Source: Dactylosporangium aurantiacum (lineage in GTDB: Bacteria; Actinomycetota; Actinomycetes; Mycobacteriales; Micromonosporaceae). From it: a stretch of 19,534 nucleotides of DNA. Below the pieces are notes generated by a model. The model worked only from the letters and a program-made list of their open reading frames with translations. It had not been told where the DNA came from and made no database searches. This document shows, one piece after another, positions 13,053 to 18,311 of the stretch; position 1 is the stretch's first letter; each line of letters opens with the position of its first letter. Made by a program: the position numbers and the translations under genes. The stretch spans positions 1-19,534 of the forward strand of contig NZ_JNYJ01000100.1 of assembly GCF_000716715.1 (NCBI RefSeq), read 5' to 3'.

Positions 13053-16000
13053 TCAGCCGGCCGTGATGGTCAGCGCCTTCGTCAGGTAGCTGTACGCGAC
13101 GGTCAGCTTGACCTTGTCGGCGCCGTCGGCGGCCGCCTGGTCGAGCTTGAGCGCCGACAGGTCCGAGTCCTTGAGCAGCGTGGTGAGCGCCGTGGCCGCC
13201 TGCTGGTCCGGCGTCGCCTTCGTGAAGTCGACGACCGCGTCGCCGGTCGCGGCCTGCTCCGCGGCGGCCACGTTGACGATGATCCGCTTCGCGGCGGCCG
13301 GGACGGTGATCGTGGCGAGCTGCCCGGCGAGCGTCGCCCGCAGTGGCAGTACCGTCTTGGCCAGGTCGACGTCGAGCGCCGGGTGCGCGCCGACCGCGGG
13401 CACGGCGAGCCGGGTCTGCACGGTCGCCGGGAACTTCGCCCGGCGGCCCTGGATCGCCAGCGAGTACTGGCCCGGGGCGAGGGCCACGTCCACCATGGCG
13501 ACCCCGACGTTGGTGGTGTACGGCACCCGCTCGACGACGGCGAGCCCGCCGACCGTACCGGTGAACACGGCGTCGAACTCGCCGTCGAGGCGCTCGCCGC
13601 TCGTCGCGTGGGTGTGGTGGAACGCGACCTGGATCTTCTCCGGCTGCGGGGTGGTCCACCTCTTGACGATCTCCTCGCGGACCTTGGCCTGCTCGGCCGG
13701 GGACAGCATCGCGCCGCCGGCCTGCAGCCGGGCCAGGTCGCCCTCGAGGTCGGCGGACCGGCCCGCCGACTCGAGCGCGCGCTGCGCCGCCGCCTCCTGC
13801 ACCGGGGTCTTCGCGTCCGTCAGCGCCTTGAGCGCGGCGGCCTCCCGGGTGTTCTGCGCGGTGACCGCGTCGGCGGCCGCCTTGTTCTGGATCTCCTTGG
13901 CCTTCTCGGCGGCCTGCGCGATGGAGATCGAGTTGTCGGAGAGCTTCTTGAGCAGGTCGGCGACCTCCGCGCGGCCGGACATGTCGCGGAAGATGTTCGA
14001 CGCGGTGAGCGCGGTGAGCGCGCCGGCGATGCCGTGCGGGTCGGGCGCCGCGGTGGGCTGCGCGATGGTGATGATCGGCGACGGGAACGCGGTCGGGGTG
14101 GTGCCCGTCGTCGGCGACTCCGGCTTCGGCGTCGCCGGCGTCGCCGGGTTGATGCCGGGCGCCTCGACGGGGATCGGGTGCTGCTCCCACTGCCAGTACC
14201 GGGTGTTGTCGATCTCCTCGGAGATGTTGCAGTGGCCCAGCTTGCCCTCGGCGAAGACACCCCGCGTCGGGAACGTGACCAGCCGCTCGCCGCGCGCCTG
14301 CGGGTCGACCGGCACGTCCGGCACGCCGATTAGCGGGTACGCGACGTACGAGCCGAAGACGTCCAGCGCGGTGGGCTCGATGTGGTCGATGGCCTTGTCG
14401 GCGTTGCCGAGCCAGTTCATGTCCTCGAACGCGATCGCGGTCTCGTTCGGGTGCCGGGCCAGCGCCACGGCGTTGCTGTAGTAGGCGGTGTGCTCGTGCA
14501 GGTGCTCCAGCAGCCGGCGCATCGCCAGGCGCTCCTCGACGCTCAGCGCGTGCTCCGCCGACGGGATCGGCGGCACGGACGGCGGGTCCGCCGCGGGCGG
14601 GCGGATCTCGGTGAACGTGTTGTTGCCGTTGTCGTCGTCGTCCTCGGTGCGGTAGTAGCCGAAGTGGCGGTGGTACTCCTTGAGCTCCGACACGATGATC
14701 TTCGGGCCGTTGGTCATCGCGAACCCGTGGATCGCCATGCTGTGCAGCCGCCAGGTGTCGTTGGCGGTGTTGATCTCGAAGCCGGCGATGTCGCCCCACT
14801 TGACCCCGATGGGCTGGTCCGTCGGCGGCGACTTGTACCAGTCGGGGACGTAGGCGAAGAACGACGCCCACTCGCCGCCGCCGCGGACCCGGCCGCCGGT
14901 GTTGAAGTCGTCGTTGCGGGCGCCGGGCTCGGGCCCGGTCACCAGCCGGATGTGGAAGCCGTCCCACCGCACCACGTCGATGGTCAGGTCCGAGTCGGCC
15001 TCGTTGCCCATCTCGTCGTGCAGTCCGTCGTTGGTACGGACCACGAACTCGAACATCTTGAACAGCACGTCGCGCTCCCGGCCGGGCTGCGACTGCGCGT
15101 GGTCCACGTTCGCGTCCAGGTTGGCGGCCTCGCGTTCGGCGGTGACCGTGAGCAGCTTCTCGATGGCGTCGAAGCCCGGACGCACCCGCTGGTCGAGCAG
15201 GAACCGTTCCAGCGCCGGCCGGTGCGCCCGCACCAGCTCACGCGTCTTCGGCTGCGCCGGGTCGAGCGGGAGCTGCGGCGGCCGGATGAGCGCGACCGGC
15301 CGCCGGCGGACCCACCGGGTCTCGACCCGGTAGTGGCGCAGCACCTCGTAGTACAGGATGGTCAGGGTGTGGCTGTGGTTGTAGTTGGTGAAGGTGCGGG
15401 TCTGGATGGTCTCCTTCTCCGCCTGGCGGGACTGGATCACCACGGTGCTGTTGAGCTCCCGCCGCGCCGAGCTGGCCTGCACGAAGCTGTCCGACAGCCG
15501 CTGCACGTTCTCCGCGGCCAGGTCGCGGCTGCCGCTGCTGGTGGAGTAGCTGCCGCCGAGGGCCGCCGAGGCGCCGGCGCCGACGCCCAGCGCACCGGCC
15601 GCGCCGCCGCCGCCGACACCGGCGGATCCGGCCAGGCCGCCCATCACGGTGCCGCCCCGCTGCCATTCCTCCACGGTCGCCTGGACGGTCTCGTTGATGA
15701 CCCGGTCGCGGTGGGTACGGTGCAGGACCTCCTCCTCCAGCTCCGTCTCCTCGCGCCGGTCGGACTCGCCCTCCCAGGCCCAGTCGACGACCGCGAGCTT
15801 CACCGACTCGCCCGGGGCGAGCGGGAGGCTGTACTGGATCTCCCCGAGTGAATGGCCGAGCGCGAACCAGCCGGCGTGGTACTCGTCGACGTAGCCGAAC
15901 TTCACGGTGCCCGGCAGCTGGATCCCGGCCGGGACGTCGCGCAGGCGCACCACCTGGCGGAAGCCGAACTCCTGCAGCACGATCGGCGCGACGACGAGCT

Positions 16001-16754
16001 TCTCGCAGCCGTCCTCGCCGATCAGCAGGTCGGGCGCCGCGGCGAACGAGCCGGGGGACAGGTACCAGTCCACCAGGTCCGGGTTCTGCATCGAGGGCAG
16101 GTTCAGCACCGACAGCTGGCTGAGGTCGACCGCCGCCAGCTCCAGCTTCGCGAAGATCGCCTGATGGGTGAACCGGGCTTGCTGCAGCGCGTCGTAGCGG
16201 GCGCTCTCCTTGGCCATCGGGTACACGTGGAAGGCGTACGTGGCGTTGCCCCGCCCGATCGGCAGGTCGCCGTTGAGCCGGCGCAGGTCGAACGAGACGT
16301 ACCCCGCGTGGTCGGTGGCGAGCGTGCCCAGCGGGAACGAGTAGGTGGTGGTGCTGCCGCGGTGCTGCGGCGCGATGCCCATCCGCTGCAGCGCCTCGGC
16401 CACCACCTCGGCGGCCTCGATGCGCCGGGCCTCGTCGCCGAGGCCGACCAGGCCGCGCTCGCGGGCCAGCTCGGCGACGGCGCGCAGCAGCTCGCCGCGA
16501 CGCTCCGGCGACAGGTCCTGGTACGTGGCGTCGTCCATCGCCCGGGCGAGCGCCTCGGTGAGCATCGGGCCGAGGGCGGGATGCCGGAACTCGTCCAGGT
16601 CGCCGACGTCACCGAGGTCCAGGGGCCGGGGCGGGGTGTCGACGACGAGGGACACCTCGGCGTAGACCGGCATCCGGGCGATCGGCGCCTGGGTGTCTCG
16701 GTCGATCGCGAGGACGCTGAGATGGGTCTGGGTGAAGGAGTCGAGTCGTGGCAC
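13053..16754 (-). CDS. Giant (1233-aa) multidomain protein of unknown function
   Basis: GTG 16754 with AGGGGGT upstream opens a 1233-aa protein without signal peptide. Segments: 1-165, beta-rich with a helical insert (58-128); 170-325, beta-rich, ending PLAPGESVKLAVVDWAW; 330-365, charged helix (EETELEEEVLHRTHRDRVINE); 367-409, Gly/Ala/Ser-rich (GGLAGSAGVGGGGAAGALGV); 411-480, helix then NYNHSHTLTILYYEVLRHYR; 505-585, helical; 590-690 and 775-860, mixed, with DMNWLGNADKAIDHIEP and DVFGSYVAYPLIG; 862-905, Pro/Thr linker; 908-1035, Ala-rich coiled coil; 1040-1120 and 1140-1233, beta-sandwich-like. I recall 'APGESVK...RDR.I.E' and 'NYNHSH.LTILYYEVLRH' from other large unannotated bacterial proteins. 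No catalytic motif is evident. It appears monocistronic. Confidence 0.85.
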   Translation of the reverse strand: MPRLDSFTQTHLSVLAIDRDTQAPIARMPVYAEVSLVVDTPPRPLDLGDVGDLDEFRHPALGPMLTEALARAMDDATYQDLSPERRGELLRAVAELARERGLVGLGDEARRIEAAEVVAEALQRMGIAPQHRGSTTTYSFPLGTLATDHAGYVSFDLRRLNGDLPIGRGNATYAFHVYPMAKESARYDALQQARFTHQAIFAKLELAAVDLSQLSVLNLPSMQNPDLVDWYLSPGSFAAAPDLLIGEDGCEKLVVAPIVLQEFGFRQVVRLRDVPAGIQLPGTVKFGYVDEYHAGWFALGHSLGEIQYSLPLAPGESVKLAVVDWAWEGESDRREETELEEEVLHRTHRDRVINETVQATVEEWQRGGTVMGGLAGSAGVGGGGAAGALGVGAGASAALGGSYSTSSGSRDLAAENVQRLSDSFVQASSARRELNSTVVIQSRQAEKETIQTRTFTNYNHSHTLTILYYEVLRHYRVETRWVRRRPVALIRPPQLPLDPAQPKTRELVRAHRPALERFLLDQRVRPGFDAIEKLLTVTAEREAANLDANVDHAQSQPGRERDVLFKMFEFVVRTNDGLHDEMGNEADSDLTIDVVRWDGFHIRLVTGPEPGARNDDFNTGGRVRGGGEWASFFAYVPDWYKSPPTDQPIGVKWGDIAGFEINTANDTWRLHSMAIHGFAMTNGPKIIVSELKEYHRHFGYYRTEDDDDNGNNTFTEIRPPAADPPSVPPIPSAEHALSVEERLAMRRLLEHLHEHTAYYSNAVALARHPNETAIAFEDMNWLGNADKAIDHIEPTALDVFGSYVAYPLIGVPDVPVDPQARGERLVTFPTRGVFAEGKLGHCNISEEIDNTRYWQWEQHPIPVEAPGINPATPATPKPESPTTGTTPTAFPSPIITIAQPTAAPDPHGIAGALTALTASNIFRDMSGRAEVADLLKKLSDNSISIAQAAEKAKEIQNKAAADAVTAQNTREAAALKALTDAKTPVQEAAAQRALESAGRSADLEGDLARLQAGGAMLSPAEQAKVREEIVKRWTTPQPEKIQVAFHHTHATSGERLDGEFDAVFTGTVGGLAVVERVPYTTNVGVAMVDVALAPGQYSLAIQGRRAKFPATVQTRLAVPAVGAHPALDVDLAKTVLPLRATLAGQLATITVPAAAKRIIVNVAAAEQAATGDAVVDFTKATPDQQAATALTTLLKDSDLSALKLDQAAADGADKVKLTVAYSYLTKALTITAG

Positions 16755-16905: not shown

Positions 16906-17355
16906 TCACCAGGACTTGCCGGCCTGCTCCCGGATGGTGTGGTTGATCCGGTTGAAGAAGTTCGTCAGGGCGATCTCCAGGATGATCGAGCTGAGCTGGT
17001 CGTCGTTGAAGTGCTCCGCCGCGGCGTCCCAGATCGCGTCGGTCACGCCCGGCGCGCCGTCCTGGATGCGGGTGGCGGCCTCGGTGAGCGCCAGCGCCGC
17101 CCGCTCGGCCTCGGTGTAGAACGGGGTCTCCCGCCACGCGACCACGCTGTGCAGCCGCTCCTCGGTCTCGCCGGCCTGCTTCGCCGACTGGAGCGTGGCG
17201 TACACGCACGGGCTGCAGCCGTTGATCTGGCTGGCGCGCAGGTGGACCAGCGACAGCAGGCGCGGGTCGACGCCGCCGGCGTGGATCGCCTTGTACAGGT
17301 GCTGGACGGCGGTCATCACGTCGGGGCTCGTGGCACTCTTCAGGCGGGCTTCCAT
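16906..17355 (-). CDS. Carboxymuconolactone decarboxylase/AhpD-like protein, ECF41 partner
   Basis: The product is 149 aa. The family core is LVHLRASQINGCSPCVYATLQSAKQAGE, with redox CxxC Cys47/Cys50. ERLHSVVAWRETPFYTEAERAALALTEA, the helix that packs on the active site, and LEIALTNFFNRINHTIRE follow. Mycobacterial AhpD uses Glu118, Cys130, His132, Cys133 and His137; the aligned positions here are Ser35, Cys47, Pro49, Cys50 and Thr54, so the proton-relay residues are absent and only the thiol pair remains. Such proteins are one of the three known partner classes of ECF41 sigma factors; the sigma gene is divergent, 95 bp away. A candidate ECF41 promoter (17421-17447) points at this gene and a terminator follows it. 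The probable role is a thiol-based oxidoreductase or peroxide defence. Confidence 0.9.
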   Translation of the reverse strand: MEARLKSATSPDVMTAVQHLYKAIHAGGVDPRLLSLVHLRASQINGCSPCVYATLQSAKQAGETEERLHSVVAWRETPFYTEAERAALALTEAATRIQDGAPGVTDAIWDAAAEHFNDDQLSSIILEIALTNFFNRINHTIREQAGKSW

Positions 17356-17384
17356 CGGTCCTGCTCCTCCATGGGTGGTGTGGC

Positions 17385-17411
17385 TGTTACCTGGACCCGT
17401 CCGGGCCCGTC
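17385..17411 (+). promoter_or_regulatory. ECF41-type promoter for the sigma factor gene
   Basis: TGTTACC (17385-17391), 16-bp spacer, CGTC (17408-17411). Published ECF41 promoters have TGTCACA-N16-CGTC; this differs at two positions and keeps the spacing exactly. Transcription would start near 17418, about 33 nt before ATG 17451, implying autoregulation. Confidence 0.75.
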
Positions 17412-17420
17412 ATCACCCAT

Positions 17421-17447
17421 GACGGAGCAGCGCCGAGAAAGGTAACA
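17421..17447 (-). promoter_or_regulatory. ECF41-type promoter for the decarboxylase gene
   Basis: On the minus strand TGTTACC (17447-17441), 16-bp spacer, CGTC (17424-17421): identical boxes and spacing to the plus-strand promoter. The start would be near 17414, giving a leader of about 60 nt. Its -35 box overlaps the ribosome site (AAAGG, 17438-17442) of the sigma gene. Confidence 0.75.
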
Positions 17448-17450
17448 CCG

Positions 17451-18311
17451 ATGACCGACATGACCGAGGCGTTCGAGGCGCAGCGGGCCCGGCTGCGCGC
17501 GGTCGCGTACCGCATCCTCGGCTCGCACGCCGACGCCGAGGACGTGGTGCAGGAGGCGTGGCTGCGGCTGTCCCGCCAGGACCCGGCGGTCATCGGCAAC
17601 CTCGCCGGCTGGCTGACCACGGTGGTCGGGCGGATCAGCCTCGACGTGCTGCGCTCGCGCCAGGTCCGGCCGGAGGCACCCTACGGCGACGAGCCGCCGG
17701 AGTACCTGGTGACGCCCGACGACGGGCCGGACCCGCAGGACGACGCGGTGGCCGCCGACACCGTCGGCCTCGCGCTGCTCGTCGTGCTCGAGTCGCTGCG
17801 CCCGAGCGAGCGGCTCGCGTTCGTGCTGCACGACCTTTTCGCGGTGCCGTTCGACGAGATCGGCCAGATCCTCGGCAGGTCGGGCGACGCCGCCAAGATG
17901 CTCGCCAGCCGGGCCCGCCGGAAGGTCCAGGCGAACGAGGCGCCGGCCGCCGGCGGCCGGCAGCGGCGCGAGCTGGTCGAGGCGTTCCTCGCCGCGGCCC
18001 GCCTCGGCGACTTCGAGGGCCTGCTGCGCATCCTCGACCCGGACGTGCGGCTGACCGTCGACGGCCCCGACGGCGTGTTCGTCGTGCTCGGGGCCACGAA
18101 GGTCGCCGCCGGTGCCCGCTTCGGTGCCGCCGCCGGCGGCGCGGGGCGCGCGGTGCTGGTCAACGGCCTGCCCGGGTTCGTCGCGTGGCACGAGGACGGC
18201 ACCCCGCGGTCGGTGCTCGCGTTCACCGTGGCCGACGGGCGGATCGCCGCCATCACCGCCGTGATCGACCCGGCGAAGCTGGCACTGATGGAGCTGCCGG
18301 ATCGGGCATGA
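17451..18311 (+). CDS. sigJ: ECF41-family (SigJ-type) sigma factor with SnoaL-like C-terminal domain
   Basis: This 286-aa sigma factor has region 2 at about 7-72 (FEAQRARLRAVAYRILGSHADAEDVVQEAWLRL, GWLTTVVGRISLDVLRSR) and region 4 at 105-160 (LRPSERLAFVLHDLFAVPFDEIGQILGRSGDAAKMLASRARRKV). A C-terminal NTF2/SnoaL-like domain covers about 170-286 (ELVEAFLAAARLGDFEGLLRILDPDV). Family knowledge: ECF41 members lack an anti-sigma factor; this extension controls activity, with DGGGK and NPDKL motifs near linker and terminus. Here they are degenerate (LGATK at 213-217, DPAKL at 273-277). ATG 17451 has AAAGG 8 nt upstream; ATG 17460 is an alternative. The divergent AhpD-like gene and mirrored promoters fit the classic ECF41-partner arrangement. 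The symbol follows the M. tuberculosis SigJ type. Confidence 0.92.
   Translation: MTDMTEAFEAQRARLRAVAYRILGSHADAEDVVQEAWLRLSRQDPAVIGNLAGWLTTVVGRISLDVLRSRQVRPEAPYGDEPPEYLVTPDDGPDPQDDAVAADTVGLALLVVLESLRPSERLAFVLHDLFAVPFDEIGQILGRSGDAAKMLASRARRKVQANEAPAAGGRQRRELVEAFLAAARLGDFEGLLRILDPDVRLTVDGPDGVFVVLGATKVAAGARFGAAAGGAGRAVLVNGLPGFVAWHEDGTPRSVLAFTVADGRIAAITAVIDPAKLALMELPDRA

Follow-up and report, generated by a model that had tools for sequence, protein, structure and literature searches.

Mirror-image promoters at a near-constant spacing between an ECF41-like sigma factor gene and its divergent partner

A face-to-face promoter pair between a sigma factor gene and a decarboxylase gene

In the 19,534-nucleotide stretch of Dactylosporangium aurantiacum DNA analysed here (the window), the promoters of a sigma factor gene and of its divergent neighbour overlap as mirror images of each other. 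Does this layout follow merely from a short intergenic region, or does the spacing of the two promoters matter? The sigma factor gene (17451–18311, forward strand) encodes an ECF protein of 286 aa that is SigJ/ECF41-like and carries a C-terminal extension, as judged by Pfam and an alignment with SigJ. Its partner (16906–17355, reverse strand) encodes an AhpD-like protein of the carboxymuconolactone decarboxylase (CMD) family with 149 aa and a CSPC motif, and the intergenic region between the two genes measures 95 bp. At 17385–17447, the motif TGTTACC-N16-CGTC can be read exactly from the letters on both strands, with a dyad at 17416. The coordinates on both strands agree with the exact mirror symmetry described in the first-pass annotation, which also extends to the inner CGTCAT (17408–17413) and ATGACG (17419–17424) boxes.

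On the forward strand, the sigma-gene promoter consists of a −35 box, TGTTACC (17385–17391), and a −10 box, CGTC (17408–17411), extended to CGTCAT (17408–17413). The decarboxylase promoter on the reverse strand has its −35 box, TGTTACC, at 17447–17441 and its −10 box, CGTC, at 17424–17421, likewise extended to CGTCAT (17419–17424). Both spacers between TGTTACC and CGTC are N16, and a centre gap of 9 bp (17412–17420) separates the two −10 boxes. Shine-Dalgarno-like stretches precede the sigma gene (GAGAAAGG, 17435–17442, forward strand) and the decarboxylase gene (GGAGGAG, 17364–17370, reverse strand). The proposal that some bases serve both a promoter and a ribosome site holds for two of them, which are shared by the decarboxylase −35 box (17441–17447) and GAGAAAGG. 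By their sequence, both box pairs look like promoters of the adjoining sigma factor.

When spacers of 14–18 were allowed, the motif had two matches in the whole window, both of them here, against 0.01 expected from shuffling. The looser TGTYACC-N16-CGTC had ten matches in the 11.4-Mb genome compared to six for a reversed-pattern control. Three of these ten are of the TGTTACC variant, and two of the three are the promoter pair of the window. The third (locus L012, 1501–1527) lies directly before a frame that, by eye, resembles an acyl-CoA dehydrogenase. As it contains a perfect inverted repeat, GTTACCGACTGGTAAC (GTTACC-GACT-GGTAAC), we regard this site as a putative operator of another regulator.

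Class of the sigma factor

Both Sigma70_r2 and Sigma70_r4_2 scored above the Pfam cut-off in the sigma factor of the window, and SnoaL had no match at E 0.001. The closest solved structure is SigJ of Mycobacterium tuberculosis (PDB 5xe7), a near full-length match (E-value of 4.9e-50) that aligns with the 286-aa protein over residues 6–282, extension included. Where the SigJ linker reads WLPEP, the window protein has EPPEY; its sigma2–sigma4 linker contains DEPPEYLVT and no WLPEP motif. Because this hallmark is missing, we refer to the protein as ECF41-like rather than as ECF41, the label initially given to it, although the sigma2 and sigma4 regions, the extension and the CMD neighbour fit that label. 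Exact WLPEP was found in 11 of 103 sampled sigma factors and in none of the 51 with a mirrored promoter pair (sample described below). Besides ECF41, further ECF groups with SnoaL-like ends include ECF205, ECF294 and ECF295, according to the available parts of PMC7730460 and PMC8999054.

Experiments in two species have established that ECF41 sigma factors activate TGTCACA-type promoters of COE genes (Wecke 2012, PMC3426412, as far as available). A COE neighbour, the divergent CMD with its CSPC motif, is also present beside the sigma factor of the window. Like the window, the ECF41/COE loci in the available text of that study have a sigma factor with a C-terminal extension, a CMD partner and no obvious anti-sigma gene, and many of the divergent ones have the motif before both genes. 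A Pfam scan, which covered five window proteins in all, likewise had no match to an anti-sigma family among the other proteins scanned. The two systems differ in the WLPEP motif, absent from the window, and in the target: compared with TGTCACA-n16-CGTC, the TGTTACC-N16-CGTC of the window agrees in spacer and −10 box and differs in two of the seven −35 bases. Elsewhere in the window, a reading frame of 1233 aa (13053–16754, reverse strand) had no Pfam or NCBIfam match at E 0.001.

The mirrored pair in orthologous loci

Scanning the contigs of the named genomes with the sigma protein of the window resulted in a set of 31 orthologous loci, 22 of which have a divergent CMD according to tblastn. 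All 22 contain both promoters, with N16 in both spacers and 8 or 9 bp between the −10 boxes, which bears out the expectation that the symmetry and both box pairs are conserved in ECF sigma/decarboxylase pairs. The remaining nine orthologues are more varied. Two retain the mirror (L044, L045), three retain the sigma-gene promoter alone (L046, L047, L050), and four have neither promoter in a usable position (L021, L022, L042 and L049, the query match in L049 beginning only at residue 83). Loss of a box pair in close relatives, which the first-pass annotation named as a finding that would speak against its reading, has thus occurred for one or both pairs in some orthologues, but those orthologues are also without the divergent CMD.

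In an alignment of 14 chosen mirrored loci, GTTAC and CGTCAT of the sigma-gene promoter and TGACG (−10) and AGGTAAC (−35) of the decarboxylase promoter are invariant. Compared to its 13 aligned relatives, the window has an 11-bp insertion at 17373–17383, where the −35 box of the sigma gene is followed by the start of CMD.

Spacing of the two promoters across sigma factor relatives

To avoid promoter-based selection, we picked 103 sigma loci by protein similarity. These comprised 10 loci from the genome of the window, the 31 from the orthologue scan, 29 and 18 further loci (the 18 being those left after removal of two duplicates, L160 and L163) and 15 plasmid loci, hand-picked out of 216 and 221 records. 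The mirrored pair is present at 51 of the 103 loci, window included, with a gap of 8 in 30 and a gap of 9 in 21; the other 52 are not mirrored. Seven non-mirrored loci have two motif matches, which in six cases lie back to back with gaps of −62 to −164. The seventh (L059, at +161) is probably a chance double match. Since six loci possess two separate promoters, overlap is not essential. Where promoters do overlap, the spacing is narrow, and none of the 58 loci with two motif matches in this sample had an overlap at a spacing other than 8 or 9.

In a tree of the 103 sigma factors, for which the bootstrap had not settled and the root serves for drawing only, mirrored loci are scattered through a group of 91, while the remaining 12 include none. 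Nine of these 12 have the exact WLPEP motif and the rest a near form of it, compared to two of the 91. Three well-supported sister pairs (starred; L032/L041, L026/L038 and L056/L177) have a gap of 8 in one member and 9 in the other. The gap can therefore shift by a single base, and still no mirrored pair falls outside 8–9. Eight of the hand-picked plasmid loci are alphaproteobacterial. Four of them are mirrored with a gap of 8 (Rhizobium L178, L182 and L183; Shinella L179), one has separate promoters (Labrenzia L185), and the loci from Paracoccus (L184), Methylobacterium (L186) and Sinorhizobium (L191) have no pair. Among the ten loci examined in the genome of the window, a paralogue (L004) is the only other mirrored one; its pair lies before the sigma gene, is of the TGTCACA type, and has GGTC and TGTC −10 boxes at a gap of 9.

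These data bear on whether the window simply contains two independent ECF41-type promoters that overlap by virtue of a short intergenic region, the spacing being without function. Intergenic regions are indeed short (95 bp in the window), separate promoters occur in six relatives, and both promoters were already known at divergent loci: of the 55 divergent ECF41/COE loci in Table 4 of PMC3426412, 36 have the motif upstream of the sigma gene and 41 have it upstream of the COE gene. Yet overlaps outside a spacing of 8 or 9 number 0 of 58 even though the gap is able to shift by one base, and the spacing is constant although the distance from the mirror to the partner ORF varies. We therefore consider independent promoters an unlikely explanation.

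A search for the promoters alone

We next queried 394 genomes of the class with the pattern GTYAC-N17-CGTC-N{4,16}-GACG-N17-GTRAC. This pattern requires CGTC in both −10 boxes and so misses TGTC and GGTC variants, of which there are six among the 51 mirrored loci of the protein-based sample. It matched 60 places in 52 of the 394 genomes, all of which were inspected. Although gaps of 4–16 were allowed, the −10 boxes are 8 or 9 bp apart at 57 of the 60 places. A related sigma gene was found within 200 bp of 58 places, with a gap of 8 in 43, a gap of 9 in 14 and a gap of 5 in one; the two places without a sigma gene have gaps of 6 and 15. An off-register control, with spacers one base longer, matched 17 places in 16 of the 394 genomes, with gaps of 5–15 and 7 of 17 at 8–9, and none of the 16 of these 17 places that were examined encodes a sigma homologue. 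A reversed-pattern control in the same search matched in one genome. Put as a rule, CGTC-N8/9-GACG with −35 boxes 16 bp outside adjoins a related sigma gene at 57 of 57 places in the 394 genomes, and is useful for finding such sigma factors and their targets.

Sequence patterns within the mirrored pairs

Pooling both sets resulted in 108 loci with 101 distinct pairs, taken up with a search form that allowed spacers of 15–16 and gaps of 8–9. The centre gap is accordingly 8 or 9 bp in 101 of 101 distinct pairs, and the spacer is N16 on both sides in 100 of 101 under a pattern that allowed 15 or 16. In 86 of the 101, an A comes directly after CGTC and a T directly before GACG. The variable third base of the −35 core tends to be the same in both promoters of a pair (T/T in 52, C/C in 47, mixed in 2 of the 101); in a subset of 54 pairs, this matching has a Fisher P of 4e-13 with relatedness ignored. 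Most T-type −35 boxes seem to belong to a single clade, so the matched variants may represent few independent events.

The conserved centre could also be viewed as a palindrome, CGTCA-N6/7-TGACG, that is the operator of another dimeric regulator and whose halves merely resemble −10 boxes. Its dyad and near-invariant half-sites are what such an operator would have. However, in 100 of 101 pairs each half has a −35 box at a distance of exactly 16 bp (partly by construction of the pattern), half-site spacings of 6 and 7 are both found, and some single-promoter loci retain CGTC and its −35 box with the other half gone. With a −35 box for each half and single promoters that persist alone, we rejected an operator for another regulator as the main reading and regard it as very improbable.

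In the 54 pairs, 0–7 nt separate the −35 core of the partner promoter from the first start codon in frame with the sigma gene, and a Shine-Dalgarno-like stretch, loosely defined, is present in 51 of them, so the double use of bases noted above is general. We also considered whether selection acts on a short upstream frame in each transcript (NTG ACG ... TAA/TGA, around eight codons) that would allow leaderless translation and couple it to that of the sigma gene. On the sigma side, this frame begins with ATG in 31 and GTG in 14 of 54 distinct pairs and ends in TAA or TGA in all 54, and, by our way of counting, a purine is the first base in 45 of 54 compared to 34 of 54 on the partner side (P 0.03). 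Conversely, any two promoters that face each other in this way bring about the frame and its stop, 9 of 54 frames begin with CTG, TTG or AGG, the peptide is variable, and the likely start site would lie at or past the first codon. The absence of in-frame stops (0 of 324 codons on either side, versus 2 of 540 on the sigma side and 4 of 540 on the partner side in other frames) is uninformative. A conserved upstream frame is thus quite improbable.

The spacer of the sigma promoter (17391–17407 in the window) contains a recurrent inverted repeat, GCCCGTCCGGGC or a variant of it, in the window and its 22 orthologues with CMD, with matched changes in some species. In the CMD transcript, this repeat would be a hairpin close to the 5′ end.

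Partner genes

A candidate divergent ORF was picked at 106 of 107 mirrored loci on the basis of the GC bias of its codons, at a distance of up to 300 bp from the mirror; some of these ORFs may be neighbours rather than targets. According to Pfam (E 1e-5, with loci reached by two routes still counted twice), 53 of the 106 candidate partners belong to CMD, 14 to DoxX_2, 8 to NAD_binding_10, 6 to Flavodoxin_2 and 4 to MMPL. Further families number 6 or fewer each, some overlapping those listed. The distance between the mirror and the candidate partner ORF varies among loci. At a Streptomyces plasmid locus (L180, mirror at 1902–1961), the mirror is retained while the CMD and DoxX genes are located downstream of the sigma gene. 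The gene annotated upstream shares its strand, and the best divergent ORF had no Pfam match. As the mirror geometry is found with differing partner families, the promoter unit is independent of any one partner family.

A putative sigma-specific bidirectional promoter

We favour, with a probability of about three in four, a reading of the region as a bidirectional promoter specific to this sigma factor, with each −10 box placed at the opposing start site and both directions drawing on one shared polymerase-binding event. The sigma factor encoded at 17451 would bring polymerase to either of two identical mirror promoters with a common melting zone, one reading the sigma gene and the other the decarboxylase gene. 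Because they face each other at 8 or 9 bp, each −10 box would sit at the start site of the opposing promoter, and the DNA would be opened by one polymerase at a time. Once active, the sigma factor would split its firing between positive autoregulation and its target. The ratio of sigma factor to target would then depend on how strong the two near-equal promoters are relative to each other, which would also cap the feedback gain.

The start sites are predicted from the Sinorhizobium meliloti ECF41 promoter. In the available part of PMC6180224 (Table 1), the sequence of its CMD promoter ends 9 nt after CGTC, and this end is probably the start site, judging from the lower-case last base of another row. 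Placing the start 8–10 nt past the −10 box puts the predicted zone at 17419–17421 (forward strand) for the sigma transcript and, by symmetry, at 17411–17413 (reverse strand) for the decarboxylase transcript, with a predicted start-to-start distance of 6–10 bp. The reciprocal overlap of start and −10 box holds if initiation occurs 9–10 nt past the −10 box, as the S. meliloti sequence suggests; with a gap of 8 and a start 9 nt past CGTC, each start would fall on the G of the opposing TGACG. With starts at these places, two polymerases would need the same melted DNA.

That two RNA polymerases could not bind at once, as first proposed, is likely, considering that the spacing is fixed over a large clade wherever the promoters overlap. 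That many related bacteria share the layout speaks for a spacing that matters. Analogy with bidirectional promoters of Escherichia coli likewise leads us to infer exclusion, with promoter strength setting the ratio. Of two other parts of the first-pass annotation, one needs correction and one is unsupported. Transcription from each promoter was said to run through the other, but the predicted transcripts diverge without overlap and each crosses only the opposing −10 and −35 boxes. A bistable switch through direct competition was suggested as well. In a toy model with non-cooperative binding, all 100 parameter sets led to a single steady state, whereas cooperative binding made 17 of 100 bistable, in both cases alike for exclusive and independent layouts. 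Exclusion by itself gave rise to no bistability in this model, and bistability from competition alone is unsupported.

A further-reaching version of the bidirectional reading, on which we are evenly balanced, is that SnoaL-fused ECF sigma factors have evolved a dedicated class of bidirectional promoters, with mirrors locked at 8–9 bp. Each −10 box would then double as the opposing start, and every initiation would choose between sigma factor and target. This would fix the ratio of sigma factor to target and cap autoactivation for any target gene, and Actinobacteria and some Alphaproteobacteria would have retained the unit through a series of partner gene exchanges.

Relation to described bidirectional promoters

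Bidirectional promoters have been defined in Salmonella by divergent starts 7–25 bp apart (PMC10268837, available parts); for the window, a distance of 6–10 bp is predicted. Those that depend on sigma-70 share a −10 element, and their commonest start distance is 18 bp, with 10 and 23 also common (Warman 2026, PMC12825309, in the text available). They consist of pseudo-symmetric DNA with divergent starts and accommodate polymerase in one orientation at a time, as is predicted for the window. According to the same portion of PMC12825309, one direction can repress the other in E. coli under substantial activation and not at basal activity, which was too low for competition in the bidirectional promoters tested there. 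Unlike the sigma-70 promoters, whose −10 element is common to both directions, the window has an ECF sigma factor and two −10 boxes, each with its own −35 box, and a single shared −10 element is absent: the boxes lie 8–9 bp apart in the distinct mirrored pairs. The gap of the ECF pair is fixed over a large clade, whereas sigma-70 start distances vary (PMC12825309, available text). The unit of the window would thus work like a bidirectional promoter, but with two −10 boxes instead of one shared element it appears to be a variant of the described kind.

The first-pass annotation knew of no description of such an overlap. Promoters before both divergent genes are in fact known (PMC3426412), and the available text of that study makes no mention that we found of overlap, mirror symmetry or a fixed gap. 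In the literature that could be searched, we found no description of the locked ECF geometry, and no papers on overlapping ECF promoters or on a SnoaL sigma factor together with a carboxymuconolactone decarboxylase promoter. According to the available parts of PMC12825309 and PMC10268837, bidirectionality results from a housekeeping −10 element that is itself symmetric. Here the whole unit is mirrored, −35 boxes included, and its spacing varies by no more than one base pair throughout a large clade of sigma factors, which makes it a natural system for testing what polymerase exclusion at the promoter level is good for.

Several promoters without a facing partner have NTGA around 7–10 nt past the −10 box, perhaps as the remnant of a lost mirror or as an initiation signal.
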